A stretch of DNA of 64,000 nt, from the NCBI GenBank assembly GCA_003021785.1, contig PXQU01000013.1, positions 248,001-312,000 of the forward strand. Reading direction: 5' to 3'. The translations under genes were made by a program, and so were the position numbers. The notes beneath the pieces were generated by a model that was given only the letters and a program-made list of their open reading frames with translations, had not been told where the DNA came from and did not search any database. Origin of the DNA: Halobacteriales archaeon QH_7_65_31 (GTDB lineage: Archaea; Halobacteriota; Halobacteria; Halobacteriales; Haloarculaceae). Positions 1-46,250 of this stretch are shown here, piece after piece; position 1 is the stretch's first letter, and every line of letters starts with the position of its first letter.

Positions 1-217
1 CCTGTCGCGCAATCTCCGTCGCAAGAGGCGCCTCGCTCACCGTGTCCATCGCCGCTGACAGCACGGGGACGTTCAGCTCGACGTTCCGGGAGACTCGGGT
101 GCTGGTGTCTGCCGCGTCCGGCTCGACGCGCGACTCCTTCGGACGAAGTAGCACGTCGTCGAAGGTCAGCGCCTCTGGTACGGTGAGCTTCTGCGAGAAT
201 CTGTTGTCTTCTACCAT
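1..217 (-). CDS. guaB: IMP dehydrogenase, N-terminal part (runs off window)
   Basis: Converts IMP to XMP, the first step of GMP synthesis from IMP, in the cytoplasm. Only the first 72 or so codons are present; the rest lies beyond the left edge. Read leftward from the ATG at 217, the peptide contains LTFDDVLLRP and then VPVLSAAMDTVSE, the conserved N-terminal strands of the IMPDH barrel. Its start faces away from the lipoprotein gene at 387, leaving a shared 170-nt divergent promoter region. Confidence 0.93.
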   Translation of the reverse strand, partial: MVEDNRFSQKLTVPEALTFDDVLLRPKESRVEPDAADTSTRVSRNVELNVPVLSAAMDTVSEAPLATEIARQ

Positions 218-386
218 GTAAACGGTGCACGGCCACGTCTGAAAAGCATTCCGAGAGATACGATACCAGACCCGTGTGAACATATATCACGTAGTGCGAT
301 TCGATAGCGCGTCCGGGGTCGCAGGCTCGTTCGCCGCCGGTTCGCGCGTCCGAACTGTTAAGCCCGTAGCGTTGACATCCGGGGCT

Positions 387-1496: not shown

Positions 1497-1552
1497 CCGC
1501 GTCCGCCTGAGTGACCAGCGAGAGCCGCTTCATCACTCAGTTCCACGCAATA

Positions 1553-1559
1553 CTTATAT
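1553..1559 (+). promoter_or_regulatory. TATA-like box for the small gene at 1582
   Basis: CTTATAT lies 23-29 nt before ATG 1582, the usual archaeal spacing for a leaderless start. Confidence 0.5.
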
Positions 1560-1581
1560 GAGATACGCCGTAGCTTCGCGT

Positions 1582-1773
1582 ATGGACGCCGCATGTTCCA
1601 ACGTGGCCCGTGTTGCCGGAACGAGTACACACTCCGTAGACACGACAGCGACAAAGCTCACGTTCGGAACAGCGGCCTGGTTCGCGTTCGACTGGCTCGG
1701 TCTCGCTCGGCAGCGACTGGGCTATCGCGACGCTGACCACCCACCGGCGACGGGGTATCGCCCGCAGCCCTGA
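1582..1773 (+). CDS. Small hypothetical protein (63 aa)
   Basis: I do not recognise this product. The frame can extend to an ATG at 1558, but ATG 1582 is preferred because a TATA-like CTTATAT sits 23-29 nt before it. The stop TGA (1771-1773) is immediately followed by the ATG of the next gene, which suggests one transcript and translational coupling. It contains one modest hydrophobic stretch (WFAFDWLGLA) and a Pro-rich tail. The context supports a real gene, but short GC-rich frames arise by chance. Confidence 0.45.
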   Translation: MDAACSNVARVAGTSTHSVDTTATKLTFGTAAWFAFDWLGLARQRLGYRDADHPPATGYRPQP

Positions 1774-2607
1774 ATGAGCGTCTCGAAACACCCGATCGCG
1801 GTTCGTCTCGAGCAGCAGGTCGGCGAGGGGACCCGACTGCTCGCGACAGTGATGTGTCTCCCGCTCGTCGACGGCATCTTTCCGGCCCTCGTGCTCGCGG
1901 GCGGGCTCTCGACCGCGCTCGGGATTCTGGAAGTCGGACTGCTCGTCTTCGGCGGGTCGGCGACGCTGGCGGTCGTCCTCGCCGAGATGGAGGGGACGCG
2001 CCGCGAACAGATACAGTCGATCCTCTTGGTCGGTGTGCCGCTCGTGGTCGTCGCCGGGGCCGAGACCGCACTGGCTCCGACGATCGCGACGATGCTCGCG
2101 ATTCCGACGTTCGAGCGGTTCGCCGCGCTGGTCATCCTCGCCATCGCAGCCAAGACGGCTTCCGCGACGGTCGGTGAGTATCTCCCCTCACCGGGTGTCA
2201 TCGTCGGACTCGGGCTGGTCGCGTCGTTCCAGCCCGGCAGCTTCGAGCTGGCATTCAGCGCGAACCCGACTGTCATTCTCCGAGGGATGGCCGCGGCGGG
2301 AGCCGGTGTCTCCTTCGCGCTCGGCGCTGCGCTGTTCGGTCCGTGGCTCCGCGGCAACGTCGATATCGACCGCTTCCGGTTCGGTAGCGCCGTCGCGCTC
2401 GGCGTGCTCCCGTTGAGCATCCTCGGTCTCATCGAGGCGAACGTTCCGCTCGCGCTCGCCGTGCTCGCCGTCACGTCGCTGCTCTCGCTCGATCCACAGG
2501 GCGCAGTCGAGCCGGAGCCGATGTCGGACGACGAGAGCGCCGACGCCGATCAGGGCGACGAGCCGGTAGGCGACCCCGCTGGAAGCGAGCAGGCCCCGTG
2601 GCTCTGA
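1774..2607 (+). CDS. Polytopic membrane protein, haloarchaeal DUF5794-like
   Basis: A 277-residue integral membrane protein with about seven hydrophobic segments and an acidic, disordered tail from about residue 248. It matches my memory of the haloarchaeal family DUF5794, whose function is unknown; I could not verify the number. It begins directly after the stop of the small gene upstream and is followed 36 nt later by a small zinc-ribbon gene on the same strand. I associate that partner (DUF5795) with this family. Confidence 0.7.
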   Translation: MSVSKHPIAVRLEQQVGEGTRLLATVMCLPLVDGIFPALVLAGGLSTALGILEVGLLVFGGSATLAVVLAEMEGTRREQIQSILLVGVPLVVVAGAETALAPTIATMLAIPTFERFAALVILAIAAKTASATVGEYLPSPGVIVGLGLVASFQPGSFELAFSANPTVILRGMAAAGAGVSFALGAALFGPWLRGNVDIDRFRFGSAVALGVLPLSILGLIEANVPLALAVLAVTSLLSLDPQGAVEPEPMSDDESADADQGDEPVGDPAGSEQAPWL

Positions 2608-2643
2608 CGACAACGCTTTGACGCGCCGGCTGAACGTTGAGGT

Positions 2644-2868
2644 ATGGCCGACAATCGCGTCGTGGAGGGGCGAATGGTGACGCCGAAGGCGCTCGCCGAA
2701 CGGATCGAAGGCGACTCTGTTATGGACGCCGAGGGAATCGAGGACGCCGATTTCGACTGCCCGGACTGCGGTGAGAGCGTTCTCTCCGTCGGCTACATGC
2801 CCGGCGTGGCGAGCTTCCACACCGGCTACAAGTGTCAGGAGTGTCCGTGGTCGGATATCGAGGCGTAG
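2644..2868 (+). CDS. Small zinc-ribbon protein, DUF5795-like
   Basis: A 74-residue protein with two CxxC pairs, Cys39/Cys42 and Cys64/Cys67, expected to bind one zinc. No enzymatic motif is present, so it may be an adaptor or nucleic-acid-binding protein. It lies 36 nt after the membrane protein on the same strand. The family is probably haloarchaeal DUF5795 (recalled, not verified). Its stop meets the stop of the convergent ferredoxin gene with no gap. Confidence 0.72.
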   Translation: MADNRVVEGRMVTPKALAERIEGDSVMDAEGIEDADFDCPDCGESVLSVGYMPGVASFHTGYKCQECPWSDIEA

Positions 2869-3219
2869 CTACCGCGGCAGCAGCTGTCCCCAGTACCGTT
2901 TCTCGATGAGTTCGACCGTCAGCGGCTCCGTCACCGACACCTGACACGACAGTCGCGGGTAGCCGTAGCGCGCGGCCAGCCGGTCGTGCCAGTGGTCGGC
3001 CGTCGGCTCCGTCCCGTCGTCCGTGTGGACGCGGACGCCACAGCTCGCACAGAGACCGTTGCCGCCGCAGTTAGCGACCTTCGCCGCCGGCGCGTACACC
3101 TCGAAGCCCGCATCGAGCAGGAGCGTCCGGAGGTTCTGTCCGTCTGTCGCTGTGAGTTCGGTCTCGGTCTCAGTCTCGGTCTCGCCGTCTCGCACTCGCA
3201 CCGCGTGTGTCTCGGCCAT
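2869..3219 (-). CDS. [2Fe-2S] ferredoxin-like protein
   Basis: A 116-residue soluble electron carrier. The cluster ligands are Cys51, Cys57, Cys60 and Cys92: a Cx5CxxC set followed by a distant Cys in RLSCQV, as in adrenodoxin/reductase-type plant-like ferredoxins. Near the N-terminus (residues 13-21) is a run of alternating Thr-Glu encoded by a CTCGGT-type hexamer repeat, which is low complexity and may vary in length. ATG 3219 is chosen; the frame stays open upstream but that stretch overlaps the tRNA. No reductase lies next to it, so its partner is unknown. Confidence 0.82.
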   Translation of the reverse strand: MAETHAVRVRDGETETETETELTATDGQNLRTLLLDAGFEVYAPAAKVANCGGNGLCASCGVRVHTDDGTEPTADHWHDRLAARYGYPRLSCQVSVTEPLTVELIEKRYWGQLLPR

Positions 3220-3300
3220 AGGTGTCGATGGGCGTCGAGCGGTATAGTCGATGCCCCGAATCGAAACCCCTTTACTCGGAATCCATGTACGAGGAGACGA

Positions 3301-3479
3301 GGGGCTGTGGCCAAGCCAGGCATGGCGACTGACTCCAGAGGCCACGCGCCCGGTGACGAGACTCCAGACTGATATACCGAGCCGGCGACTGATCATCGCC
3401 CGCGATGACGACCCTCTGGAGGACCGAGGCGCACACCGGAGATATCAGTCGATCGGGGGTTCAAATCCCTCCGGCCCCA
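3301..3479 (+). tRNA. tRNA-Trp (CCA) with a long intron
   Basis: The acceptor stem pairs GGGGCTG (3301-3307) with CGGCCCC (3472-3478), with A73 at 3479. D stem, anticodon stem (ACTGA at 3328-3332 with TCAGT at 3445-3449) and T arm all fold. The anticodon CCA is 3335-3337. An intron of about 105 nt (roughly 3339-3443) interrupts the gene after position 37, the canonical archaeal site. The intron holds C/D-box-like motifs (GATGACG near 3404, CTGA near 3369 and 3390) and TCTGGAG (3415-3421), complementary to the anticodon loop. This matches the known haloarchaeal pre-tRNA-Trp intron that guides 2'-O-methylation. Confidence 0.95.
3339..3443 (+). ncRNA. tRNA-Trp intron, probable box C/D guide RNA
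   Basis: It carries C/C'-like (GTGACGA, CGATGACG) and D/D'-like (CTGA) motifs, plus segments complementary to the anticodon region of its own host tRNA. In Haloferax the equivalent intron guides methylation of positions 34 and 39. The function here is by analogy. Confidence 0.7.
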
Positions 3480-3493
3480 TACTCACTTTGAAT

Positions 3494-4374
3494 GTTTCAA
3501 TCCCACAAGGGTTCGTCTGTAACGCGCGCTCCGCCCGGAGCATGAGCCGCCGGATATCGCTTCAACCCCACAAGGGTTCGTCTGTAACAGAAAGCGACCA
3601 GCGGCTCGCCGGGGGGTAGCTCGCTTCAACCCTACAAGGGTTCGTCTGTAACAGTCGCTGAGACTGTCGGGCGAGACCCAGAAAGCAGCTTCAACCCTAC
3701 AAGGGTTCGTCTGTAACTAGCGCGAACTAACAGCCACCCTTCGCGTGTCCGCTTGCTTCAACCCTACAAGGGTTCGTCTGTAACATTTCTTCCCGCACCT
3801 CGGGCGAGTTCGCAGACACGCTTCAACCCTACAAGGGTTCGTCTGTAACCGTCGTATGCAGCCAGAGACAGCCATGTGTCCACAGGCTTCAACCCTACAA
3901 GGGTTCGTCTGTAACTCGGATCGACCGACTCACCCGCCGCGAGGAGCATGTCGCTTCAACCCTACAAGGGTTCGTCTGTAACCAGCCCCGCGAGGGTCCC
4001 CGCGCCCACTCCGAGGGAGCTTCAACCCTACAAGCGTTCGTCTGTAACTGTCGTACGTCGCCGGGTCCTGTGTGATCCCGACGCTTCAACCCTACAAGGG
4101 TTCGTCTGTAACCCTCACTCATCCAGATCACCGATATGAGATCTCAGTGCTTCAACCCTACAAGGGTTCGTCTGTAACCGTGACGATGTCGCTGGATGGC
4201 GAGACACGTTCACGCTTCAACCCTACAAGGGTTCGTCTGTAACCGCGGCCGGACGTTGCCCTGCGTCCTCGATCCGTTCGCTTCAACCCTACAAGGGTTC
4301 GTCTGTAACCGGCTCAACCTCGCCGCGTTCGTTCCGTCGGACGAGCTTCAACCCTACAAGGGTTCGTCTGTAAC
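3494..4374 (-). CRISPR. Type I-B CRISPR array, 14 repeats and 13 spacers
   Basis: Fourteen 30-nt repeats start at 3494, 3559, 3623, 3688, 3755, 3820, 3886, 3953, 4019, 4083, 4149, 4214, 4280 and 4345. Spacers are 34-37 nt. On the minus strand the repeat begins GTTACAGACGAACCC and ends GTTGAAGC, matching haloarchaeal I-B repeats with an 8-nt crRNA 5' tag. The copy at 3494 has three substitutions, the one at 3559 has one, and the one at 4019 has one. Decay at the left end makes it the old, leader-distal end, so transcription runs leftward, in the same direction as the cas operon. The array ends only 14 nt from tRNA-Trp. Confidence 0.97.
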
Positions 4375-4477
4375 CATACTCGATCTTCGGGAGACACGTC
4401 TGCTAACGTGTGGATACAATAAAGAGCTTCTGTCGACCCTCAATAAGCTGCATTCCACAGAGGGTTGACGGAACTAG
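4375..4477 (-). promoter_or_regulatory. CRISPR leader
   Basis: An AT-richer stretch just upstream (minus strand) of the newest repeat. It includes a TTTATTGTAT-like element near 4415-4425 that could be the array promoter. Two inverted repeats are visible: ACACGT (4394-4399) with ACGTGT (4406-4411), and GTCGACCCTC (4432-4441) with GAGGGTTGAC (4460-4469). The second could terminate the cas transcript arriving from the right. Leader identity rests on position and repeat polarity. Confidence 0.65.
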
Positions 4478-4740
4478 CTAGAGAAACCGCTGCTCTTCGG
4501 TCGGATCGTCGGTATATACCGTCCGGTTCAGGAGTGCATCGGAGGATAACTCGTAGATGATTGTTGATTCGCCGGGTTTCAGCAGATCATCGACCTTTCT
4601 TTCAGCGTAGCTAGATTACCTTCGGAGATCTCCCCCTCAAGTCCCGAGTTCTGGACGTGGAAAAAGTATCGACGGTCGAATTTGAGGGCCCCCTGCGTCC
4701 GGTCGGCCTCCGGATCATAAACCACCACGACGTATACGCT
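4478..4740 (-). pseudogene. cas2: cas2 remnant (frameshifted, no start codon)
   Basis: Cas2 pairs with Cas1 to capture new spacers. Read leftward, this stretch encodes VYVVVVYDPEADRTQG then FFHVQNSGLEGEISEGNL, the recognisable first half of haloarchaeal Cas2. That frame then hits a stop. A second frame continues with DDLLKPGESTIIYELSSDAL and ends in DPTEEQRFL before a stop at 4478-4480, the usual Cas2 C-terminus. The frames switch near 4594-4602 in a CTTTCTTTC tract. No ATG or GTG is evident before VYVVV. It cannot make a normal Cas2. Confidence 0.85.
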
Positions 4741-4741
4741 A

Positions 4742-5110
4742 TCACCACCGTTGGAACGAATCGTACGCCTCGCCGGTGAGTAGGTGTTTTGAGCTTGTAT
4801 GCTTCGAGCTGCAGCAGGTATTGATAGCTGACCTTCCGGTTCAACATCGGATGTTCAACAGTCCGTTCCGGTGTCTCGTCGAACTCCTTCGCGTACATCT
4901 TTCGTCCGGATTCGTTTAGCAGACAAGAGCCGAGATCAGTCATCATTTGATGCTGTCGCCGACTACCAGCAGGTCAGTCTGGAGTCGCACGAACGCATCT
5001 CGGTCAATATCTTCAATCGTAGTTTCGAGAGTTGGCGCGCTTCGAGAGCCGCTTTGACTATCTTAGTAGAGGCGTATCAAGCACCGTCGACCTCGTAGTT
5101 ATGAGGATTC
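4742..5110 (-). pseudogene. cas1: cas1 remnant (internal deletion and frameshifts)
   Basis: Cas1 is the spacer integrase. About 4800-4935 encodes SCLLNESGRKMYAKEFDE, then ERTVEHPMLNRKVSYQYLLQ and LEAYKL, the typical Cas1 C-terminal region. The last codons (HLLTGEAYDSFQRW, then TGA) lie in another frame, so at least one frameshift separates them. To the right, 4950-5110 holds short out-of-frame pieces (LDTPLL, IVKAALEA, ANSRNYD) that I read more cautiously as mid-protein Cas1. The N-terminus and the segment before SCLLNE, which carries active-site residues, are missing. No cas4 is recognisable between this and cas3. Confidence 0.8.
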
Positions 5111-5146
5111 TGAGTGATAAGATCTGAACGAAATGAGTTGCCACAT

Positions 5147-7792
5147 TCATACCTCCGTATCGAAGACAACCGATTCAATCCTAACGCCCTCTCCGGTAGT
5201 GATATCATATCCATCGGCTTGACTCGCAGGCGTAAATGCTCGAAGATCATCATCAGTATTGTCTTCTGAGACCGGGATCGAAGTGACACATGACTGCAGT
5301 GCCTGAAAGTTCGATTTCGCAGCTGTCCACCGGCCGTCTTCTTTGCCATTCAGATACGCCTCAAATTCTTCCCGTTCGGAATCAGTCACTAACACCGCAA
5401 CATCAACGGTCTCGTAATCATTATCGATCAGGGACACACTCCGTAAGTACTCGCCGTTTCCGCTATGGAAGGCATCAACCAGCGGATCAGTCACTGCGTC
5501 CGTCTGCCGTTGTGCATGGAGTGTTTCATAGAACGATTTGATACCGGAACTGATGAGTGCTGCTTCAGGGATCTCCGCCGTAGTTCTCTCGTCTCGAAGC
5601 GACTGCAAAACGGTTCGTGTCGGTCGAAGCAGGGAGTCATCACCGTAAACCAACTTGCTTGGCACATACTCACGGCCTGCTGGACTGTCGAGTCGCCAGA
5701 TCGTCACCGTCCGAGTCGGCCCCCCAAACGAGCGATTACAACGTCCAGCAGCTTGGACAATCGCAGGCAGTGGAGCAAAGTCTCGAAACAGACGATCAAA
5801 GCTAATGTCGACCCCAGCCTCGATCAGTTGGGTCGAAATCGTAATCGTCGGGAGATCATCGAACGGTGTGGTCGAATCATCGCTGATAACTTTTGAGAGT
5901 GCATCTAACAGTAAGGATCGGTCTTTCGGCCGGAGACGCGTGGTCAACGTTGCCGTGAGCAGTTCACAGTCATCGGTGGACGCATCGAGATAGCGTAGAT
6001 ACCCAGCCGCTGATCTCTCCTCGTCATCGGTCGCTCGCTGGTAGGCCAGCAGTGAGTCACCAAGAGCCAGAGTCGTCGGTTCTGTGAGTGCCTCGGTCAT
6101 CTCAACGGCACAATCAACCGTATTGACGATCGAAAGCGTGTTTCTTCCAGCAGCTGTCTCAGCCCGTACCACCTCAGCAGCATCAGGGATCCCAAGAGGC
6201 TGGCTCGTCCCGGTAAAATAATCTAATAGACTGTCGTGCAAGGTGAATTGCACACGAGGAGAATCCTCCAAGACGGCTGTATACTCATCAGCCATATCCA
6301 CGAGTGGCTCTGGAGTCGGACATCTCGCCAACTGGCGAAGAAACCGTGGCTGTGTGGCAGTCATCAAAATCACGGTTGCATCATACAGCTCGACGCAACT
6401 CTTGATTAGCTGGCCGATGAGGTTCCACCACGACAGCGGGGCAGCCTGTGGTTCGTCGATGACGATAACACTGTCATGGAGGGCCGGCAGTTTCACCGAT
6501 TGAACGTTTCCAGGGCCAGCGAGACTCTCAAACAACTGCGTGAATGTCGTTACGACAAGCCCGGATCGCCACGCTTCTGCATGCAACGTTTCTCGACCGG
6601 TCCCGTAGCTTTCACCCGCCAGCTGATTGGCAGCGGTGCGGGTGTCTGCCAGATGGTGGTGTTTGGTGTATGCCGTTGAGTGTGGCGTCACATCCAAAAC
6701 AGATTGGATTTCGCTATCGACTTGATCGATGATCGACGTATACGGCAACGCATAGATGACGCGACTATCCCGATTGTCAGCTCGCGTCATGGCGGCTCGA
6801 AGCCCACTGTATGTCTTCCCAAATCCGGTGGGAAGAGTCAACTCGAAGACGTACTGGTCAGGGCTCGCTTCAATCGTCTGGGTCGCACGGGCGTTGGCAG
6901 CGGTTTGGATCGCGGCCACTCGTTGGTCCGTCGTCGCAGAGCTGCTAGGGAGTGCTGCATCCGGATGCTGTCGATACCACCGCGATTCTGATCCATTTGG
7001 AAGGGTTGTCGAGGCGAGACGATCGACAGCTTGGGTGAGCTTCGTTACATCTGGGCGATCGACCGTGCCGAGATTGGCTGTCGTCTCCGGCGTTGTCAGT
7101 TCACTTGCATCGCTCTTATCGGCGGTCACCAGCGTCGACCACACTGCCTCCGTGTAGGCGTAGAATTGATCGGCCGCGTCGTCAGTCGAACGATTCGAAA
7201 ATAGTTCTGCTTCGAGTTGATTGAGGAAGTTTAGATACTCAGAGATCTCCGTCTCGTTGATTGCTTTCCATCGGAGGCTGCCGTCTGTGGCTGCTTGGAG
7301 GATCTGATCTGCTGCCGGAGCGCATTCAACATCGATCTTTTCGAGCTGTTCAGCTAAAACAGCCACATGCTGTTGTTTGGTGACGCGATCCGACTGGCGA
7401 TATCGCTCGAATTCGTGCTTCAGGTTCGGCAACACGCCGTGGTGTTTGGCGACTGCGATGAATCCGGCAGCAATCGTCTGGGGGCTGCACTCTAACTCCT
7501 GTAACACCCACAAAGAGAGTAACGCGCTGACGCCGCCGTGGAAAGTGTGCCTACGTGAGGGCGCCTCTGAACGACTGTCGGTTTCGAGATACTCCTGAAA
7601 CCACGGGGTGAGCTTCCCGAAGTCGTGTGTCCACGCAAGACTGTGGGCGACCGTCGACCACTCTTCCCCATAGGGGGTCTGGCCCCACCCGTCGGTCAAA
7701 GCTGCTACTCCGCTGGCAACCCCTTCAAGATGGCGCGCTAGCGATTGGGTCTCTCGGGCTTGATATGCCGTCAGTGGATCGTCGGTAGTCAT
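5147..7792 (-). CDS. cas3: CRISPR-associated helicase-nuclease Cas3
   Basis: The 881-residue effector nuclease/helicase of type I-B interference, recruited by Cascade to unwind and cut target DNA. The N-terminal HD nuclease domain shows His56-Asp57 in HSLAWTHDFGK, His82/His85 and His117-His118. The helicase core has Walker A PTGFGKT (321-327), the DExH-type DEPQ (446-449), the MTATQP motif, and the late motifs ISTQLIEAGVD and QAAGRCNR. All motifs are present, so it appears functional. ATG 7792 overlaps the cas5 stop by ATGA; a TTG at 7801 is an unlikely start. Fourth-from-Cas6 partner genes precede it in the same operon, and the decayed cas1/cas2 follow it. Confidence 0.96.
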   Translation of the reverse strand: MTTDDPLTAYQARETQSLARHLEGVASGVAALTDGWGQTPYGEEWSTVAHSLAWTHDFGKLTPWFQEYLETDSRSEAPSRRHTFHGGVSALLSLWVLQELECSPQTIAAGFIAVAKHHGVLPNLKHEFERYRQSDRVTKQQHVAVLAEQLEKIDVECAPAADQILQAATDGSLRWKAINETEISEYLNFLNQLEAELFSNRSTDDAADQFYAYTEAVWSTLVTADKSDASELTTPETTANLGTVDRPDVTKLTQAVDRLASTTLPNGSESRWYRQHPDAALPSSSATTDQRVAAIQTAANARATQTIEASPDQYVFELTLPTGFGKTYSGLRAAMTRADNRDSRVIYALPYTSIIDQVDSEIQSVLDVTPHSTAYTKHHHLADTRTAANQLAGESYGTGRETLHAEAWRSGLVVTTFTQLFESLAGPGNVQSVKLPALHDSVIVIDEPQAAPLSWWNLIGQLIKSCVELYDATVILMTATQPRFLRQLARCPTPEPLVDMADEYTAVLEDSPRVQFTLHDSLLDYFTGTSQPLGIPDAAEVVRAETAAGRNTLSIVNTVDCAVEMTEALTEPTTLALGDSLLAYQRATDDEERSAAGYLRYLDASTDDCELLTATLTTRLRPKDRSLLLDALSKVISDDSTTPFDDLPTITISTQLIEAGVDISFDRLFRDFAPLPAIVQAAGRCNRSFGGPTRTVTIWRLDSPAGREYVPSKLVYGDDSLLRPTRTVLQSLRDERTTAEIPEAALISSGIKSFYETLHAQRQTDAVTDPLVDAFHSGNGEYLRSVSLIDNDYETVDVAVLVTDSEREEFEAYLNGKEDGRWTAAKSNFQALQSCVTSIPVSEDNTDDDLRAFTPASQADGYDITTGEGVRIESVVFDTEV

Positions 7793-8550
7793 CGGAAACA
7801 AACTGTCCGATCACCCACGGTCGACAGCGGTGCCTCCGGTGCATGGAGCGGTTCCGTTTCAGGCGCGTACGCATAGGATGCAAAACCGGTTGTTTTACGA
7901 CCAGATTCCTCGGCTTCCATGAACGCTGGTGAACGTTCCATCCGAAGTGGAGTGTCAGGCGTGGGAACAACATGGCCTTCCGGAACTGTGGAGCTGATCG
8001 CTTCCGGATCGCCACCAGCTTCGACCGTGTTTCGTTCGACATCCTCAAAGGAGGCCAGACACTCAGTTTTCCCGAGAGATGGTGTATACACAGCTCGCCC
8101 GCTGGTGAGATACTCAGCCAACCGTTCGAAGGTGTCTGTCTCCGCTAGGATGAGATCGATGCGGTAGGCTGCATCGACGACGTACTCGAAGGTTCGCCGT
8201 TTCCGTTCTTTGGCGATCGTTTCGGGGTCAATCACCGTTTTCCCAGAAACCCCTTGTGCAGATTTGATATCTCCACTGGTGGTCGGCAACGTCAACATCG
8301 GAATCGACTGGGTGCGAAGCGAACAGACTGGTGAGATCGCCATCGCTGAGTGTTCACGGCTGAATGTCTCATAATAGGAATCGCGTGGTTCCCCAAGGAC
8401 AGCAGCTAACAGTCCGGCAACAGTCGTTCGAGGGATCACCCGATAGGTTGGCTTCTCCGTAGTCGAATCCACCCGTCGGAAATGTGCAAACGGGCCGCTG
8501 ACGGTGAAGGACAAACACTCCTGACCGACGACATCTAGAGCTGTAGTCAT
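7789..8550 (-). CDS. cas5: Cascade subunit Cas5 (type I-B)
   Basis: A 253-residue RAMP-fold protein expected to cap the 5' tag of crRNA in the I-B Cascade. The N-terminal part (SFTVSGPFAHFRRVDS, then TTVAGLLAAVLG) is the typical Cas5b start, and the GKTECLAS segment is also characteristic. Its ATG overlaps the cas7 stop (ATGA) and its stop overlaps the cas3 ATG in the same way, so translation of all three is probably coupled. Length is normal for Cas5b and no lesion is visible. Confidence 0.94.
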   Translation of the reverse strand: MTTALDVVGQECLSFTVSGPFAHFRRVDSTTEKPTYRVIPRTTVAGLLAAVLGEPRDSYYETFSREHSAMAISPVCSLRTQSIPMLTLPTTSGDIKSAQGVSGKTVIDPETIAKERKRRTFEYVVDAAYRIDLILAETDTFERLAEYLTSGRAVYTPSLGKTECLASFEDVERNTVEAGGDPEAISSTVPEGHVVPTPDTPLRMERSPAFMEAEESGRKTTGFASYAYAPETEPLHAPEAPLSTVGDRTVCFR

Positions 8551-9599
8551 GCCTCGTAGGGATCGTGTTCGACGACCGAATCGGCGCCGACAGCCGATTC
8601 AAGTGCGGTTGTTAGCACCTCCGGTCCACCAACTTCACCGTCGGCTTCGACGGTAAGATGATGGTCAGCAGTGTAGTGAACGGTCTCGACGTGTTCGTCG
8701 TACTTGTCTACGGCAGCTACTAACTCATCGATGTTGAGAGTGACATCCGTGATGTTGCGAAGCTCTGTATCGGCAACGTCGCCACTCAGCTCAAGCCCGT
8801 CATCGAGTGTCCCGATATGGAACTCGTCGGTAGCATACTCAACACGAAGATACAGCCGTGGTTGATGCCCCATCTTCGATCGGGTGAGAGTCTGGTTTTT
8901 GACCGAGCGCCACAACAATGTATCAAGCCGTTCGACATCTGCCGTACTGAGCAGTGTATCCCCTGCGGCGACTTCATTGACGATACCATGGAAGGGAATG
9001 ATCGCATACTGGAGTCGGTTGTCCGTAGCGAAGGTTCCCTGCTCGGCATCTTTACTGCTTGAAACGACCGTCGAGAGCTGTTTTGATTCGCTTTTCTGGA
9101 CGACCGTATTCAGGCTGCGAGCATGGCTAAACTGCACCGGCCCGATGAACTGTCCCGGGAAGCCCTCACCAATCGTCTCTTGGAAGTCACTACTGAACGA
9201 ACACGTCGCCCCAAAGTAGCGGACATCAGCAGCATGCTGCAGAAAGCTTACCGCGGCTTCGTTTCCGCCCATCTTCTCGATGTCGTCCTCATCAAGGCCG
9301 GTCACCCGAGTGAATAGCACATCACGGCCGGGAACGTCTTCGATATCACTCTTCGAGGGGTTCTTGACGTAGATCCCAAAGTCATCGTCGTCGAGCTGGT
9401 CGCGAAGATACCGTTTCAATCGAACATCCGTCACGACAGCCGCCCCGGTCGTCTCGTCGATCCGGGGTTTGTCGTTGGCCGACAATGGATTGCCGTTCGG
9501 ATTGGTGTCCTCAGCGTCGTACACGAAGACGATTTCTGAACGATTCGCTACGGTGTCGGTTCCATCAGGGTCGGCGGCGGCGGTGTCTGTATCAGTCAT
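8547..9599 (-). CDS. cas7: Cascade backbone subunit Cas7 (Csh2 type)
   Basis: The 350-residue backbone protein that polymerises along the crRNA spacer. Residues following the acidic N-terminal tail read SEIVFVYDAEDTNPNGNPLS, the classic Cas7/Csh2 opening, then DVRLKRYLRDQL. The mid-protein GPVQFSHARSLN and the SKMGHQPRLYLRVEY segments are also typical. ATG 9599 is chosen over a TTG 24 nt upstream; it lies four nt after the cas8b stop. The N-terminal tail of about 20 Asp/Thr-rich residues is a haloarchaeal feature. Confidence 0.95.
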   Translation of the reverse strand: MTDTDTAAADPDGTDTVANRSEIVFVYDAEDTNPNGNPLSANDKPRIDETTGAAVVTDVRLKRYLRDQLDDDDFGIYVKNPSKSDIEDVPGRDVLFTRVTGLDEDDIEKMGGNEAAVSFLQHAADVRYFGATCSFSSDFQETIGEGFPGQFIGPVQFSHARSLNTVVQKSESKQLSTVVSSSKDAEQGTFATDNRLQYAIIPFHGIVNEVAAGDTLLSTADVERLDTLLWRSVKNQTLTRSKMGHQPRLYLRVEYATDEFHIGTLDDGLELSGDVADTELRNITDVTLNIDELVAAVDKYDEHVETVHYTADHHLTVEADGEVGGPEVLTTALESAVGADSVVEHDPYEA

Positions 9600-9603
9600 G
9601 GGA

Positions 9604-11826
9604 TTAGTTGTCGTCGGCTGCAAGGGGTTGCTCGGAAGACTGTTCGTCGTCGGTATCGAGGCTCGTATCGCTGAGCCCGTAGGCGATCCCCAAGCTGTAG
9701 AGCCACTGGAGTTCGGCTTCGGTCAGTGACCAGTCATTGAGAGTCGCAGAGAGCATCAGATCAGGCAGTCGATCGGTGTACCGATTGAGTGTCTGATACG
9801 ACCGACTATCCTCGGCTTCGGCGTAGGAATTGTTCATCTGCAGCACCTCTTTGGTGACCTCTTGAACGGTCTGTTTGGTGAGGTAATCGACGGGGTATCG
9901 CCGAACCAACGTTGAGGAGATATCCTCATAATCTTGGTAGGCGGTGATACGGCCCACCAGTCCACCGAGGATGAAGACGGCCCGTTGGGGGTCACCGTCT
10001 AAGGCGGCATGTGATTCAAGGAACTGTGCAAGTCGATCGTCGCGTGAGTCGTACTCGTCGATCATGGGCGTGGTTTCGAATGAGAGCGTCTGGCTGCTAT
10101 CTAAGAACCCTGCATCAGTGAGGGCTCGAAGCTGGATGTATTGTTCGACGACACTGCGTTTCGGGAAGGCGATATACTCACCGTCGTCATCGAACTGCTC
10201 GCGTTGGTCTTGAACAAGTTGGTGGAGATAGTTTTCCAGTAACGTAGCAGCTGATAGTTTCCCATCGGTTAGCAGTGTCTTGACGGGACTAAAGCGGCTG
10301 TCATCGGCCGCTCCAGCTCCTGGCGTTTCATTTGCTTGCCGACTACTCCGGGTTGGCTCCGTCGTCCGACGGAAGTACACTCCGTAGAGGATCAGACGGG
10401 TTAGATTACTGGGCTCCCCGAGCAACCAACTGGACTCAGGAGAGGGGTTGCCTTCGAAGATGCCATTAGAATCGAACGGCATCCCACAGAGAACGGTGTT
10501 GTGGGCATCTTCAAGTTCTAACGGTCGGAAAACCCCATCGAGGGTGTCGAAGAAGACACGATCTGGATTCCCGGTAACCTGATAGACCACTGCGATCCGG
10601 ACGGTCGAGTAGTTGAGGGAAGACGACGTTCCGAGAGACAATTCGCTCGAAGAATCAGAGTCTGTGGAGTAGGCTGACCGAACCGAGTCGAATAATTCGG
10701 TGACCGTCTCATTGAGGGTACCATCTTCGCCGGTGTCGGCCGACTGTAGTTCGGTGAATACCTCTCGATAGAATCTCTCGAAGGTCTCTGGGTCAGTCTC
10801 CGACCCACGGGTTGCCAGATACGGCAGCACGTACAGCCGTCGGCTTGAGCCCAAAGGTTGATAGAAGTCATCGAACACGGAGCCAGCCACCGCTACCGCA
10901 GCGGCAACGTCGAACGATAGCGGGCGATTTCTCCATGCCGATTGACCCTCTGTATCGAGATCGGCGAAGTGCTCGCGTTGCTTCTTGCCGAACATTCCAA
11001 ACAACCCGGGCGACCCGCCAGTGACCGCTTCAACGGTGTCACTCACATAGCCAGTGGCTTCTCCTTCAGCATTTTCGACAGAGATACTGGTCAGCCGATC
11101 AGCTTTCTTTGCTCGCATTACATCGTTGAGCACCGGCACTTCGCCAGGATACTTGTACTCGGTTGCACCCGGTGGTTTCACCCGAACGGTGATCAGAGCC
11201 TCAATTTCGTCGTCTTCACTGTCGACCAACCGAAGGAACGAGTCAGCCAACTCGTCCATCGCGGTATCATCATCGCCGAGTGTAGCCAGCCCCTCAAGAA
11301 TGGCCGCTTCATCAGGCTCAGCCGACTTCCGGACTTCTTCGGCGTACTCACTCTGAGCCCAGTCGGTGAACCGATCTTGGATGTTGTTTGTTCCCCACGC
11401 ATCGTCACGGAGGCCGGCGATATGGTGGGCATCAGCACCCTTGTGGGTGGTAATCGAGTAATCCGTCATCGAGCTGGTTTTGCCCTCGGGATAAGAGTGG
11501 CCGACCTGATAGCGACCGGCTTCGGTCAACGTCGTAATCTCGACTGCCTCATCAGTTGTCTCGGCCGTCCCTAACTGTGGATTCTGTGGGTCAGAGAGAT
11601 CAGCATACACGGTGATCAAGCTATCAGGCTCTCCAAAGAGACCACTCTTCGCGCGTGGCGTAAGGTATGCGAGATGTTCCGGCGCGAGATCCCAGTCCAA
11701 ATCAGCGGAGGTAGCTGCGTTGTACCAATCGTACAACGAGTACTGCCAAGCGACCTCATACAGTGAGGCTGGAATTCGATCTTGGAACCGATCGACGGCC
11801 GTTTCAGCGAGTGTGTTACTCGTCAT
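9604..11826 (-). CDS. cas8b: Cascade large subunit Cas8b (Csh1 type)
   Basis: A 740-residue protein, recognised mainly by its place between cas6 and cas7 and by its size, which suits Cas8b/Csh1, the subunit that reads the PAM and recruits Cas3. Segments such as LYDWYNAATS, YLTPRAKSGLFG and VVYQVTGNPDRVFFDTLDGV look like haloarchaeal Csh1. ATG 11826 overlaps the cas6 end by 11 nt. A longer frame upstream lies wholly inside cas6 and is not used. No frameshift was seen. The sequence of this subunit diverges quickly, so identity is less secure than for its neighbours. Confidence 0.9.
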   Translation of the reverse strand: MTSNTLAETAVDRFQDRIPASLYEVAWQYSLYDWYNAATSADLDWDLAPEHLAYLTPRAKSGLFGEPDSLITVYADLSDPQNPQLGTAETTDEAVEITTLTEAGRYQVGHSYPEGKTSSMTDYSITTHKGADAHHIAGLRDDAWGTNNIQDRFTDWAQSEYAEEVRKSAEPDEAAILEGLATLGDDDTAMDELADSFLRLVDSEDDEIEALITVRVKPPGATEYKYPGEVPVLNDVMRAKKADRLTSISVENAEGEATGYVSDTVEAVTGGSPGLFGMFGKKQREHFADLDTEGQSAWRNRPLSFDVAAAVAVAGSVFDDFYQPLGSSRRLYVLPYLATRGSETDPETFERFYREVFTELQSADTGEDGTLNETVTELFDSVRSAYSTDSDSSSELSLGTSSSLNYSTVRIAVVYQVTGNPDRVFFDTLDGVFRPLELEDAHNTVLCGMPFDSNGIFEGNPSPESSWLLGEPSNLTRLILYGVYFRRTTEPTRSSRQANETPGAGAADDSRFSPVKTLLTDGKLSAATLLENYLHQLVQDQREQFDDDGEYIAFPKRSVVEQYIQLRALTDAGFLDSSQTLSFETTPMIDEYDSRDDRLAQFLESHAALDGDPQRAVFILGGLVGRITAYQDYEDISSTLVRRYPVDYLTKQTVQEVTKEVLQMNNSYAEAEDSRSYQTLNRYTDRLPDLMLSATLNDWSLTEAELQWLYSLGIAYGLSDTSLDTDDEQSSEQPLAADDN

Positions 11827-12589
11827 CAGTGATGTTGATAAAACCGAGTCCGAGACCGTTCCGTTCGCCAATGCCGGTGTCCAACGCAAGGTTGAGATGT
11901 CGGCGGTGATCGTCATCCCGAACCTGATACTCGAATCGCCACTTGCTGAGTACGAAAGTCATCTCTTGGCCTTTAGTGACTGTCACCGGCACTGCGAAGG
12001 TTTTCAGCAACTCGTAGCTGTCGAACAGTTCGTGGTCGGTTTCACTCGGCCCAGGGAGGTAGTCCGGACAGAACCGATCGTGTTTTTGATCGAGGTTGTT
12101 TTCGAGTTGGGTGACAAACGGCTCCATCGTATGTTCAGGCCGCCAGAACACAGCGGTATCGCCACCCGGATGGTCGATATTGTACTCGTCGCACCGCCAT
12201 GGTGGAATCCGAACTAAGACACCAGTGCCGGTCTCGATCGTGCCGGTGCTACCGGGTTCGCCGACATCAGGCGATACTGGGGTTACATCTTCGACATAGA
12301 ACGGCATCTCGCTAATGTTGAATTCCCGGTTGTCAAGTAGATCTGCAGCGACGTGAGCCAACAACTCTTTTTCGGGAGCTGCGACCAACACGGTTCGCTC
12401 ATCGCCGGCTTGCATATCCCGCGGCGGGAATGGATTCGAGTAGACGAATCCCGGCGGCTCGCCGTCGCCATGTCGATCATCGAACTCGGTGTCTGAAAGT
12501 GCAGCCCAGAGCCTGCTACGCAGTTGGTGATGGTAATCGTTCTGGTAGACTGCGTCCGCTCGAGCGGACAATGTAGCCATTACACGCAC
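11816..12589 (-). CDS. cas6: crRNA-processing endonuclease Cas6
   Basis: The 257-residue nuclease that cuts the array transcript inside the repeat, leaving the 8-nt tag. The C-terminal glycine-rich loop GIGERNGLGLGFINI is diagnostic, and a possible catalytic His lies at the N-terminal YHHQLRSRLW. First gene of the operon. The start is GTG 12589 because a strong GGAGGTGA (12599-12606) sits 9 nt before it; an in-frame ATG at 12580 is the alternative, giving 254 residues. Confidence 0.93.
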   Translation of the reverse strand: MRVMATLSARADAVYQNDYHHQLRSRLWAALSDTEFDDRHGDGEPPGFVYSNPFPPRDMQAGDERTVLVAAPEKELLAHVAADLLDNREFNISEMPFYVEDVTPVSPDVGEPGSTGTIETGTGVLVRIPPWRCDEYNIDHPGGDTAVFWRPEHTMEPFVTQLENNLDQKHDRFCPDYLPGPSETDHELFDSYELLKTFAVPVTVTKGQEMTFVLSKWRFEYQVRDDDHRRHLNLALDTGIGERNGLGLGFINITDDE

Positions 12590-12598
12590 TTCGGTGAC

Positions 12599-12640
12599 TC
12601 ACCTCCGTTGTGGATGCTCATGTGATTTGTTGTATATTTA
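12599..12640 (-). promoter_or_regulatory. cas operon promoter and Shine-Dalgarno site
   Basis: On the minus strand TAAATATA (12633-12640) is a good TATA box. A start about 27 nt further on would give a 5' leader of roughly 20 nt holding GGAGGTGA (12599-12606), 9 nt from the cas6 GTG. An ATG at 12621 opens a 13-codon frame whose TAA overlaps the alternative cas6 ATG (TAATG); it lies upstream of the predicted transcript start. Confidence 0.6.
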
Positions 12641-12649
12641 CCCACATCA

Positions 12650-13080
12650 TAAATCTCCCCAAAGGGAGGTGAAAGTGGAGCAGTCATCTTGGTTATAGCC
12701 CTTTGACAGATAGTTTTGTTCTCTCGATTGAGTTCGGCTGAAACTGACATACAGATCATTTGGGTAGCTTCAACTTCTCTGAGATTCATTTGGAACCTTC
12801 CAGTAGATCTATATGCCCATGTTTCTAACTACAAGTGCATTTGAGAGGCTGTTCTGGCATGCCCAGCTATATTACGACCATTCGCGTGGTCTTTGGCTGG
12901 GTAGTCAATATCTTGGCACAAAGACGGATATAGTGCGTGTTAGATTAAAATTTTTGGTTGAGACAGTTCCTTTGGATAGAATAGGGGTTGGACCCCACAA
13001 TCTTATTAGCGTTAATAATTTTATCAGGGCCTATGGGAGATTGAAGTGGCAAAAGATCAATCGGGTAGTTGAGACTACCA
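12650..13080. other. AT-rich region upstream of cas operon, no gene supported
   Basis: This stretch is clearly richer in A/T than its surroundings. The one open frame of some length (12813-13103, plus strand, 96 codons) has no family resemblance, lacks the usual acidic haloarchaeal composition and has no clear start signal. It is probably foreign or decayed DNA. Confidence 0.4.
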
Positions 13081-13081
13081 A

Positions 13082-13106
13082 CTTTCAGTCGAACCCCAGT
13101 TGAAGC
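13082..13106 (+). repeat. Possible shortened CRISPR-repeat relic
   Basis: CTTTCAGTCGAACCCC followed by AGTTGAAGC resembles the crRNA-sense repeat with about five central bases missing. The last eight bases equal the crRNA tag GTTGAAGC. It points opposite to the array and to the relic at 13366. Could be chance. Confidence 0.35.
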
Positions 13107-13300
13107 CTCAAAAAGAGGAGTATATGTGTTTTAGATAAAACTTCGTGGAGTTGAAGCAGTCCTTCGTCCAACCAGAACGCCGTCTCTATGCGTGCGCTCC
13201 AGTCTACCGGCGGCGGGTTCTCTACAGTATCCAGCAGTACCGTCACGACGTACTCACAGTCCCGGTCACGCTGTACGACACATATAGGCCGTATTGACAT
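13085..13300 (-). CDS. Doubtful small ORF (71 aa)
   Basis: Reads from ATG 13300 leftward with an acidic middle (ETAFWLDEGLLQLHEV) that looks more like real haloarchaeal protein than the surrounding frames. No family is recognised. It may be a fragment of a longer gene lost when the CRISPR locus was rearranged. Low confidence. Confidence 0.2.
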   Translation of the reverse strand: MSIRPICVVQRDRDCEYVVTVLLDTVENPPPVDWSARIETAFWLDEGLLQLHEVLSKTHILLFLRLQLGFD

Positions 13301-13365
13301 CCCACTTGGCGAGAGGATCGGTCACCTTGGGGAGGCGTAATATCCTGTGCAGTCGCCGTGATTGG

Positions 13366-13395
13366 GGTTCAACGCATCAACGGTTCGTCTGTAAC
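13366..13395 (-). repeat. Orphan degenerate CRISPR repeat
   Basis: Identical to the array repeat at 25 of 30 positions, with the outer GTCTGTAAC end perfect and the changes clustered in the centre. It lies on the far side of the cas operon, in the same orientation as the array, with no second copy within spacer distance. It fits the last trace of a second array flanking the cas genes, as is common in haloarchaea. Confidence 0.8.
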
Positions 13396-13748
13396 AGCGT
13401 CCCGTCCAGCGCTCGACTAACGACGCCGACCCGATCAAGGAAGGGAGACGGGCGATAGGGTGGGTCGCGAATCGGGCGAATCTCGATCCCGACGAGTACG
13501 AGACCGAGGTCGACGGCGGCGAGGACCACACTTCGATGATTATCGACGCCGTCACAGAGTATGACACAGTGTGCGTCGGACTCTCGGAACGGAGCGACGC
13601 AGAACAGCTCGAGTTCGGATCGACCGCACGGCGGGTCAGCCGGGATGTCCCCGGCAACATCGCGGTCGTCCGTGGGCGAGAGCTACTCAAACCAGATGGC
13701 AGTGACCGAACGCTCGCTGATCTGACGGCAGCCGAAGAGATCACCTGA
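13396..13748 (+). pseudogene. 5'-truncated UspA-type domain gene
   Basis: An open frame starts directly at the orphan repeat with no start codon of its own and ends at TGA 13746-13748. It encodes the C-terminal part of a universal-stress-protein fold: TVCVGLSERSDAEQLEFG followed by ARRVSRDVPGNIAVVRGR, the typical end of UspA domains appended to haloarchaeal amino-acid or ion transporters. Everything 5' of this, including any transporter part, is absent, so the gene was cut where CRISPR sequence now begins. An internal ATG at 13536 could give a 70-residue fragment, but function is unlikely. Confidence 0.75.
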
Positions 13749-14169
13749 TCGTATCTTCACACTCGTCGTAGAGTTCGGATCTAATTCTCGGAGCGACACC
13801 CGTCCTGTACGCTACCAGGGAGATGGACGACGACCGCCTCCGTGTCGAGCTAGCGAGCCACCTGCGCGAGCGTCCGCCCGTAACTGCTTATACTCCCTGT
13901 CACGATCCTCCGATTACGGTGTGCGTCGGCGCTTCGAGGTGTTCGAAATGATATGGTGACTTACGCCCTCGTAGAGACATCAATCCATGATACCCTGACC
14001 AGCCAAAAAATGGCGTTCGACCGGCTGGTCGGCACAAACTCACATCCACACGCCGGCGCCGTCTTCGGCTACTACCCTACGTTCGATGAAGGATCAGATC
14101 CGTCGTACGTGCGGATTCATCGCACTCATTCATGAAGACAGCAGCCATCGCAGGAGGCGCGGGCGAGCA
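13749..14169. other. Intergenic region, no gene supported
   Basis: It contains a TTATACT element near 13890 and a 60-codon plus-strand frame (13953-14135) without recognisable family or composition. I see no RNA gene or repeat. Confidence 0.4.
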
Positions 14170-15045
14170 TCAGTAGTCGCCGAGCACGCCGAGCCGCCGC
14201 GCCCGGGCCGTCGCGTACTCGAACACGAAATACCCGCCGATGAGGTAGCCCACCGCGACCGAGACGAGCAGCGCCAGATCGGCGAGCGGAAACTCCCAGA
14301 GCCGGACGCCATCGACCATGGCGCGCTGGAGCATGGCGCTGCCGTGCGCTAAGGGGAGCACTCGCGTCCACGGCAGATCGAAGACGGGGGCCGAGATCAG
14401 CGCGACGAACCCGAACTGGAGGAGGTTGAGCCAGTTACCGATCTGCTTGTAGAGGACCGTCACGCCGCCGGCGGCGAAGCCGAGCCCGAGGACAGAGGTG
14501 ATCGACAGTCCGGCGACGACGACGACCGTCAGCGGCGCGAGGCTGAGTCCCGTTCCCGTGACGACGAGCATGACCGCGAGGATCACGGCGCTCGTGAGGA
14601 ACGTCCGTACCACCTTCGCGACCCCCTTCAACAGCGCGACCGGCGCGAAGCCGAACGGAGTGGTGATGTGACGCTCTAAGGTTCCCCACTGCACCTCGCT
14701 GCCGATATCGTTCGATACCGACGAGTACGCGCCCACGGACAGCGTCCACAGGAAGTAGCCGACGACGATTCCTTCGATCGAGTCCGTCAGCGCCTGCCCC
14801 GCGAGCAGCTGCCCGCCGAGGAACAGCGCGGCGAAGAAGAACAGCGAGACCACGATTCCACCGACCGCGTTCGCCGGATAGCGCACGAAGATGAGAAACT
14901 CCCGGTACAACACCGCCCGAGTCAAGTGGTAGTAGGTGGCCGGGCGATGCCCTTCATCAACAGCCGCATAACTGTCACCGACCACTCCGTTCGCAGACGC
15001 ACCGTCAGCAGCTGCCGCGTCCGGACGCGACGCGTCGTTACTCAC
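14170..15045 (-). CDS. ABC-2 type transporter permease
   Basis: A 291-residue membrane protein forming the channel of an ABC exporter with the ATPase encoded just upstream. After a polar N-terminus there are six hydrophobic segments between about residues 55 and 285, the ABC-2 arrangement. GTG 15045 overlaps the ATPase stop (GTGA), so the two are co-translated. The substrate is unknown; such pairs export drugs, lipids or polysaccharide precursors. Confidence 0.88.
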   Translation of the reverse strand: MSNDASRPDAAAADGASANGVVGDSYAAVDEGHRPATYYHLTRAVLYREFLIFVRYPANAVGGIVVSLFFFAALFLGGQLLAGQALTDSIEGIVVGYFLWTLSVGAYSSVSNDIGSEVQWGTLERHITTPFGFAPVALLKGVAKVVRTFLTSAVILAVMLVVTGTGLSLAPLTVVVVAGLSITSVLGLGFAAGGVTVLYKQIGNWLNLLQFGFVALISAPVFDLPWTRVLPLAHGSAMLQRAMVDGVRLWEFPLADLALLVSVAVGYLIGGYFVFEYATARARRLGVLGDY

Positions 15046-16109
15046 CGCGATGCACCTCCGAGTCCGGCGTCGCTCGCAACACCCGTGCGTTCGAGGAACA
15101 CGTCTTCGAGGTCCGGCTGTACGGTGCGGAGATCGGAGACGGTGACGCCGGCCGCCCGGAGCGCGTCCGTCAGGTCGTACAGCCGGTCTCCGCCCGCGAC
15201 GACCGTGATCGCCGGCGGGCGCGACTCACGGTCGACCGCCCGTACGTCGAACGCGTCCCGGAGTCCCGCGACGGTGTCATCGTCGAGATCCGGGCTCGCC
15301 ACGCGGACGATGTCGCGGTCGGCTCCGCCGAGCAGCGCCTCGACGGTGTCGTCGGCGACGATCCGGCCGTTCGACAGCATGACGACGCGGTCACACACCG
15401 CTTCGATGGTCGTCATGTCGTGGCTGCTGACGACGATCGTGAGCCCCTCCTCGACGGCGAGCCGGCGGAGCTCCGCACGGAGCGTTCGCGCACTCTCGAC
15501 GTCGAGCCCGAGCGTCGGCTCGTCCAAGAAGACCAATTCGGCGCCGCCGGCCAGCACGCTCGCCAGCGACACCTTCTGTTTCATCCCCCGCGAGAGGTCC
15601 CGAACCGGCGTGTCCGCCTTGTCCGCGAGATCGAGCCGGTCGAGCAGCCGGTCGTGGCGCGCCGCCACGGAGTCGGGATCGACCCCGCTTATCGTCGCGA
15701 AGTAGCGGAGGTTCTCTCGGACGGTGAGCCGCCAGTAGTCGTTGCGCGCGCCCTCCAGCATCGCGTCCACGTCGGCGTACGCCGTCTTGCGACCGTCGCG
15801 CACGTCAGTGCCGAACACTCGGACTGACCCCGCGTCGGGGATGACGATGCCCAGCGCGCACTTGATCAGCGTCGTCTTCCCCGCGCCGTTGGGACCGAGC
15901 AGGCCGACGACTGACCCGCGTTCGACGGCGAGGCTCACGTCGTCGACCGCCGTCACCGCGTCGTCGCCGTCCCCGAACCGCTTCGTGAACCCCTCGACCG
16001 AGAGGGCAGGCGGGCCGGTCATCTCCGCCCTCGATACGTCGTCGCGTTCGTCCCGCGTCTTGTCGGGCTCGCGGGGACCGTCGCGCGCGCTCGCCGCGCT
16101 CCGTGCCAT
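15042..16109 (-). CDS. ABC transporter ATP-binding protein
   Basis: A 355-residue ATPase that powers the adjacent ABC-2 permease at the membrane. It has Walker A GPNGAGKTT, signature LSRGMKQKVSLA, Walker B ELVFLDEPTLGLD and the switch His in VVSSHD. A C-terminal region of about 80 residues after the ATPase core ends with DVFLERTG, typical of exporter ATPases. ATG 16109 is chosen because GGATATAT (16133-16140) lies about 25-30 nt upstream, giving a leaderless transcript. Confidence 0.92.
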   Translation of the reverse strand: MARSAASARDGPREPDKTRDERDDVSRAEMTGPPALSVEGFTKRFGDGDDAVTAVDDVSLAVERGSVVGLLGPNGAGKTTLIKCALGIVIPDAGSVRVFGTDVRDGRKTAYADVDAMLEGARNDYWRLTVRENLRYFATISGVDPDSVAARHDRLLDRLDLADKADTPVRDLSRGMKQKVSLASVLAGGAELVFLDEPTLGLDVESARTLRAELRRLAVEEGLTIVVSSHDMTTIEAVCDRVVMLSNGRIVADDTVEALLGGADRDIVRVASPDLDDDTVAGLRDAFDVRAVDRESRPPAITVVAGGDRLYDLTDALRAAGVTVSDLRTVQPDLEDVFLERTGVASDAGLGGASR

Positions 16110-16132
16110 TACACCTGCATAGAGGTCAAGCG

Positions 16133-16140
16133 GGATATAT
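16133..16140 (-). promoter_or_regulatory. TATA box of the ABC exporter operon
   Basis: ATATATCC on the minus strand, about 25-31 nt before ATG 16109; fits a leaderless mRNA. Confidence 0.6.
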
Positions 16141-16298
16141 CCCCGCTCGGTTTCCAGTGCGAACACGGATCTCGACCAGTTCGCGGCGGCCAGCTCCGCC
16201 GCGAGGAGCTGTTCGGGACTCGCGCAAACCGTGGGGAACCTCGTCCGATTCCGTTACGGCCCCTTCGTCCCCCTTTCGGCTTCGTCGGCGTCCGTCGC

Positions 16299-18236: not shown

Positions 18237-18290
18237 GTCCGATCGGTGGGGGTCGTCACGGTTACGCTGTACGCATCGGGAGCGGCGATA

Positions 18291-46249: not shown

Positions 46250-46250
46250 C

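Follow-up and report, generated by a model that had tools for sequence, protein, structure and literature searches.

The stretch analysed here, referred to as the window, comprises 64,000 nucleotides from Halobacteriales archaeon QH_7_65_31 (contig PXQU01000013.1, positions 248,001 to 312,000) and contains a type I-B CRISPR-Cas locus (clustered regularly interspaced short palindromic repeats and associated genes) on its minus strand. From position 12589 down to 3494, the gene order is cas6, cas8b, cas7, cas5, cas3, a broken cas1-cas2 stub, a leader and a CRISPR array. The type I-B effector set forms one operon, with cas6 at 11816-12589, a TM1802-type cas8b at 9604-11916, cas7/csh2 at 8547-9623, cas5b at 7789-8550 and cas3, coding for an HD nuclease and a helicase, at 5147-7801. 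All five genes are uninterrupted reading frames with a Pfam match above the cut-off (Cas_TM1802 for Cas8b), which bears out the claim of a first-pass annotation, made from the sequence alone, that the interference genes are intact. The NCBIfam models for Cas6, Cas7 and Cas5 were also matched above their cut-offs. For Cas3, the HD model scored above and the helicase core below the cut-off (92.4 vs 102.45 bits), and the NCBIfam Cas8b/Csh1 model was likewise below (71.6 vs 104 bits), with the match confined to residues 537-746. Purifying selection was identified for cas6, cas8b, cas7 and cas5, with a ratio of nonsynonymous to synonymous differences (dN/dS) of 0.06-0.11 at a dS near 1.6; for cas3, dS was saturated.

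The usual, though not strictly defining, type I-B set of linked cas4-cas1-cas2 genes is absent from the window. A sequence match and comparison to the sister locus of Halonotius pteroides identified a C-terminal cas1 remnant (4738-4949, minus strand) that codes for residues 273-342 of 342 and is broken near its end by a 2-nt gap relative to the sister locus. The N-terminal 272 residues have been lost as one continuous piece; of the internal and N-terminal losses claimed in the first-pass annotation, the latter was found and no separate internal loss was seen. The cas2 remnant (4481-4737, minus strand), identified by a sequence match and by inspection, has residues 9-47 and 47-87 in two different frames (E 7e-16), and no ATG, GTG or TTG is present at the position of the homologues' start codon, so that cas2 is frameshifted and startless as described before. 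Since cas2 of the sister locus is open, the frameshifts of the window cas2 are specific to its lineage. No match to cas4 was obtained between cas3 and the array, with a best E of 0.72 anywhere in window 1-16000. The cas1 stub, the split cas2 and the undetectable cas4 agree with the earlier claim that the adaptation genes in cis do not work. The junction segment of about 200 nt from the cas3 stop to the cas1 stub (4950-5146, minus strand) had no convincing match among the loci compared.

A Cas8b clade without an adaptation module

Window Cas8b has 13 relatives at 47-75% identity, and the other haloarchaeal Cas8b matches are at 41% or below. In the Cas8b tree, these 14 rows including the window form a separate clade with a support of 100/100, spread over at least nine genera and four families. 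Named members are Halonotius (Hnt.) pteroides, Halostella (Hst.) pelagica, Haloarcula (Har.) mannanilytica, Halorientalis (Hor.) pallida, Haloferax (Hfx.) larsenii, Halalkaliarchaeum AArc-CO and Halocatena (Hct.) salina (G363; G numbers denote sampled genomes). No relative of the window Cas8b was identified in phage records or viral contigs.

The linkage of cas1 to cas8b was surveyed in 391 genomes sampled from the class, with a full cas1 counted up to 15 kb from Cas8b. The counts leave out Cas1 rows from genomes that had no Cas8b match, as well as a few short fragments of Cas1, and some loci lie near contig ends. A full cas1 was present in none of the 11 sampled clade genomes, in 2 of 8 loci with an intermediate Cas8b (36-41%) and in 62 of 69 ordinary ones. 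With Hnt. pteroides, Hor. pallida and Hfx. larsenii added, a full cas1 or cas4 match (E<=1e-3) was found at 0/14 clade loci; G024 gives no information in either clade count, as its contig stops shortly after cas3. Around the sister-group loci G138 and G317, no cas1 or cas4 was identified in the surrounding stretches examined, and the contig of G266 ends inside cas3, so that it holds no information on the sister group. The window locus therefore belongs to a distinct haloarchaeal type I-B lineage with a TM1802-type Cas8b, and the adaptation module is absent across this clade.

The effector genes and arrays of the clade are largely preserved. The Cascade genes are open in 13 of 14 loci, the exception being G350, which has kept cas6 and cas8b and has lost cas7, cas5 and cas3. 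An open cas3 is present in 12 of 14, including the window (for Hfx. larsenii by its annotation). In Hor. pallida, cas6, cas8b, cas7 and cas5 are open, and cas3 (stretch L018, 14035-16605) contains two in-frame stops, one of them in the Walker A motif. Most clade arrays are long and many have near-identical repeats; 12 to at least 83 repeats were counted in 11 loci, six in Hor. pallida and five in G350, and none were seen on the short contig of G024.

Mixed ancestry of the cas1-cas2-leader stub

Over cas1, cas2 and leader, the DNA of the window is 82% identical to the intact locus of G090, 81% to G101, 80% to G392 and 79% to G339. The stub of the Hnt. pteroides sister locus is more distant, at 76%, as are the organism's own genes on contig C3, at 72% over 285 nt. 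The loci of G101, G392 and G339 carry an ordinary Cas8b, and the Cas8b match of G090 is partial, at 37%. All four intact loci become similar to the window from one shared position, about 4941, and for G101 and G339 the similarity extends to the leader end.

In a stub tree of 27 rows, the window grouped with G392, G339, G101 and G090 (89.1/87), the pteroides stub with G235 (96.1/97) and the Hct. salina stub with G134 (86.7/94); the underlying alignment is short, with 471 columns, and recombination could mislead the tree. Forcing the window and pteroides stubs together was rejected by the approximately unbiased (AU) test (p=2.3e-6) and by the Shimodaira-Hasegawa (SH) test (p=0.037). Forcing the four tested clade stubs into one group was also rejected (AU p=2.5e-7), the Hfx. 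larsenii stub having been excluded for its very long branch. In addition, the window and pteroides stubs are about 76% identical in DNA, compared to a synonymous difference near 0.67 in the cas genes, which makes a long neutral decay of the stubs doubtful. Vertical erosion after an ancestral loss, the initial model, was dropped on the stub identities, the tree and the AU tests.

The ancestry of the window stub is therefore mixed. Judging from these alignments and trees, it is concluded that the ends of other type I-B loci have apparently been joined repeatedly to effector operons of the clade. The capture would have involved cas2-leader-array ends, of which the stubs are probably the scars. 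In G276 (stretch L061, reverse complement 13360-14822), cas3 is followed by cas2, two CRISPR repeats, an N-truncated open cas1 and a second cas2, and the two repeats ahead of this cas1 are a plausible recombination seam. In Hfx. larsenii (stretch L074 7928-6752, minus strand), inverted remnants of cas1 (residues 244-341) and of cas2 (two pieces), interrupted by other DNA, lie upstream of cas6.

Array, CreTA-like element and island setting

The array (3494-4374, minus strand) consists of 14 repeats and 13 spacers of 34-37 nt, the number of spacers given before, with the oldest repeats toward a tRNA gene. All repeats score above the gathering threshold of Rfam CRISPR-DR24, a 30-nt haloarchaeal repeat. 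Twelve of the 14 contain GTAGG and the two oldest GTGGG, and this variant site falls within repeat nucleotides 18-22, which have been described as an adaptation anchor in H. hispanica (PMC9458426). Provided that new repeats copy the first repeat, this pattern suggests at least 11 spacer additions after the repeat change; gene conversion is an alternative source of the spread of GTAGG. The analysis of repeats and spacers neither demonstrated nor excluded a recent spacer gain. The leader (4375-4477, minus strand) is of the type present beside the arrays of G339, a canonical locus, and G101. It deviates at 4 of 31 conserved columns, within the range of 0-7 of 19 other leaders, a comparison that did not tell a dead array from a live one. 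The whole array gave a single match to phages, at chance level, and the 22-nt heads of five of the 13 spacers gave no exact match to viral contigs. One spacer, the only one searched singly against 292 genomes, matched itself only.

The assembly of this genome comprises 16 contigs and is 90.6% complete. A second, complete type I-B locus was identified on contig C3, with a cas6-8b-7-5-3-4-1-2 set and 81 repeats. Its Cas4, Cas1 and Cas2 are intact and above the NCBIfam cut-offs, and its Cas1, also intact, was the single match in a Cas1-family search of the whole genome. An orphan array of 54 repeats lies 66 kb away on the contig that also holds the window (C13:176000-190000, stretch positions 6152-9630). 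It has a C3-type leader, no cas genes were present within the 14 kb read, and one 34-nt spacer is common to this array and the C3 array. This shared spacer also links C3 to the same organism. A small array with 10 varied repeats and no recognisable leader was also seen (C1:1-9000, positions 2158-2740).

Upstream of cas6, the window shows an architecture like that of CreTA, a type VIII toxin-antitoxin RNA guard of type I-B Cascade (PMC8501985, PMC9458426), in the arrangement psiR1-psiS-psiR2 (12796-12715, minus strand). The candidate creA consists of psiR1 (12767-12796), with the 5' handle GTTGAAGC conserved in 8/8 positions, a 22-nt psiS (12745-12766) and psiR2 (12715-12744), in which the 5' part is conserved and the last 8 nt are degenerate. 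The region at 12797-12958 is assigned by position only as a putative creT promoter and transcript, and short open reading frames are present in it. It is preceded on the minus strand by a TTC protospacer-adjacent motif (PAM) and a protospacer matched by psiS (12959-12981), with 14/20 matches overall and 8/10 in the seed (positions 1-5 and 7-11). In a scan of 13 clade loci (G024 was left out, with 108 nt upstream of cas6), the seed match was 10/10 in G276, Hct. salina and Hfx. larsenii and 9/10 in G044, each reached by 0/500 shuffles; two of these four relatives have a single mismatch at position 6, as in known CreTA. For the window, the score was reached by 3/500 shuffles in this wide scan and by 0/400 in a narrow one. 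The narrower reach missed G276, and the wider scan detected G276 and Hfx. larsenii. Two ectopic repeat-like sequences were seen at 13366-13395 (minus strand, 25/30) and 13128-13157 (plus strand, 21/30), and these may be left over from an upstream array like those of Hst. pelagica and Har. mannanilytica.

The array end adjoins an intron-bearing tRNA gene (3301-3479, plus strand; Rfam tRNA 43.9 bits, not listed by ARAGORN), presumably tRNA-Trp, which forms the left edge of the CRISPR region. Three same-genus genomes share synteny with window 2000-3488 (80-86%). From 3488 to 22000, no piece of at least 60 nt matched the stretches examined beyond the tRNA in these three genomes, in one of which the contig ends early; 14170-16170 has a 73% match on another contig of one of the three and only short matches in the other two. 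The G+C content is 55% in the cas genes, 46% in the stretch above cas6 and 65-66% in the flanks, and the CRISPR region looks like an acquired island. At 13536-13748 (plus strand), near an ectopic repeat, a piece similar to a universal stress protein C-terminus, with a score below the Pfam cut-off, possibly marks the right edge of the island. Further dips in G+C are located at 20001-24000 (0.59) and 44001-48000 (0.60), which are possibly other acquired stretches.

Explanations and known systems

The observations as a whole are best explained by a lineage of effector genes and arrays without a module of its own, with a captured stub, spacer addition in trans and retention of Cascade favoured by CreTA, and we put the probability of this explanation at about 0.68. 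Cas6 would cut the array transcript, Cas8b-Cas7-Cas5 would bind the resulting CRISPR RNA (crRNA), and Cas3 would cut the target. The broken cas1-cas2 would not be the remainder of a module inherited with the window Cas8b. Instead, the end of another type I-B locus, with the 3' part of cas1, cas2, the leader and perhaps an array, would have recombined in behind cas3, and the captured cas1-cas2 would have been carried in with a useful leader and array before decaying. Any spacer gain would depend on Cas4-Cas1-Cas2 in trans, here on the C3 set. We infer both crRNA-guided interference and learning in trans for the window locus. Cascade would be kept partly because cells with the linked CreTA require Cascade, or required it at one time, and do not require cas1, cas2, cas4 or cas3. 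In published assays, creTA was toxic once any cascade gene was missing, but not without cas1, cas2, cas3 or cas4 (PMC8501985); because of this dependence, Cascade would be protected while the rest is free to drift. The need of CreTA for Cascade alone may thus explain which genes are kept. Hor. pallida, with its open cascade genes and the Walker A stop in cas3, fits such a protection, yet no CreTA match was found there.

Several points weigh against this explanation. Five of the 11 sampled clade genomes are without any Cas1 (the other six have a full one elsewhere), so that some members have no helper to act in trans, and in the genome of Hnt. pteroides the stub was the only Cas1 seen. No window spacer recurs in any of the C3, C13 and C1 arrays as read, and no spacer target was found in the searches made. 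The stub may have arrived short, or a whole module may have been trimmed later. The window repeats begin with GTTACAG and those of the near donors with GTTTCAG, although the leader is of the donor type, so the array need not have come with the capture. The score of the CreTA scan was devised after the window had been seen, seven of the 13 scanned loci, among them Hor. pallida, had no match, and the match in G350 (1/500) comes from an ordinary spacer of an array, directed against the other strand. Changing any of the 10 seed bases abolished the antitoxic effect in published assays (PMC8501985), and the seed of the window has two mismatches, for which reason CreTA may be dead or decaying here.

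The first-pass annotation had proposed that the locus recently lost a complete module of its own in this strain, leaving a frozen memory of 13 spacers. The stub and the frameshift are real, and the open cas2 of the sister locus dates the frameshifts to the window's lineage, but with a full cas1 or cas4 seen at none of the 14 clade loci, with the stub nearest to intact loci of other genomes and with an intact module elsewhere in the same genome, this is quite unlikely. Death of the adaptation genes in this strain alone is not supported in view of the first two of these results, and neither is a frozen memory in view of the third and of the repeat variant, which suggests the later additions. The gene states that had been described stood, as did the reservation that another Cas1-Cas2 could act in trans: a search of the genome for another set found that on C3, which may act in trans. 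Another possibility is that the clade lost the module once, in its ancestor, and that cas1 and cas2 then eroded vertically lineage by lineage. This would account for a module absent throughout the clade and around the sister-group loci and for remnants of graded length. It is considered unlikely, since the stubs do not track the Cas8b tree, both forced groupings were rejected by AU and the stub identity is unlike long neutral decay; the original loss may still be ancestral, with capture coming later.

That the complex is now mainly a regulator or an addiction module and no longer defends is suggested by Hor. pallida, with open cascade genes beside an interrupted cas3, and by G350, which keeps only cas6 and cas8b. 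The open cas3 in most of the clade, including the window, and the long arrays with near-identical repeats make this improbable. An artefact of assembly or base calling is hardly credible even for a fragmented and incomplete assembly, as cas4 and 272 Cas1 residues are gone, lesions of differing kinds affect two genes and the equivalent absence is present in independently sequenced complete plasmid records. A stronger form of the capture explanation is more tentative: memory in this lineage might be renewed mainly through the capture of leader-array ends, together with scraps of cas2 and cas1, whose donors would be complete loci resident in the same cell or passing through it, with CreTA addiction preserving Cascade alone. 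If true, immune memory would be gained not only one spacer at a time but also through recombination of loci with each other. Under the preferred explanation, broken cas1-cas2 genes need not mean a dying CRISPR locus, and breakage may here mark the capture of an array. The lineage persists without a module across its genera and families, which bears on why many CRISPR loci are without adaptation genes, and the CreTA link offers a testable explanation for effector genes outlasting the genes for memory formation.

Adaptation-less type I-B systems are already known from haloarchaeal proviruses, namely in Haloferax lucentense, Natrinema salifodinae and Halobacterium GSL-19, where cas1, cas2 and cas4 are lacking (PMC12596717). 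They share with the window locus the interference genes and arrays without adaptation genes. Adaptation is presumed in trans for both, for the provirus systems sometimes with no other Cas locus in the genome. Cas proteins within the H. lucentense and GSL-19 set are 70-90% identical (PMC12596717), whereas window Cas8b is 28.1% identical to that of GSL-19 and lies in a separate clade, a comparison made to GSL-19 and not to the H. lucentense and Natrinema members. Captured stubs are not among the features seen for these systems in the available text, and the term CreTA is not mentioned in the main text of that paper. In the literature searched, largely without subscription papers, no report of the clade, of captured stubs or of a CreTA link with adaptation loss was found.

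Type I-E loci of Streptomycetaceae resemble the window clade in having interference genes and an array and consistently no adaptation module (PMC8730458). These loci lack cas1-cas2 but contain tnsB-tnsC, and the transposase has been proposed as a substitute (PMC8730458). The CreTA-like element of the window agrees with known CreTA (PMC8501985, PMC9458426) in its two degenerate repeats upstream of the cas operon, the conserved handle of psiR1, the conserved 5' part of psiR2, the TTC PAM and a seed match, incomplete here, to an upstream site. It differs in the seed match, which is 10/10 in CreTA and 8/10 in the window, and in that its putative toxin is known from position only. Spacers of 24 bp are reported to repress without interference (PMC10989794), and the 22-nt psiS of the window fits these repression-only short spacers.

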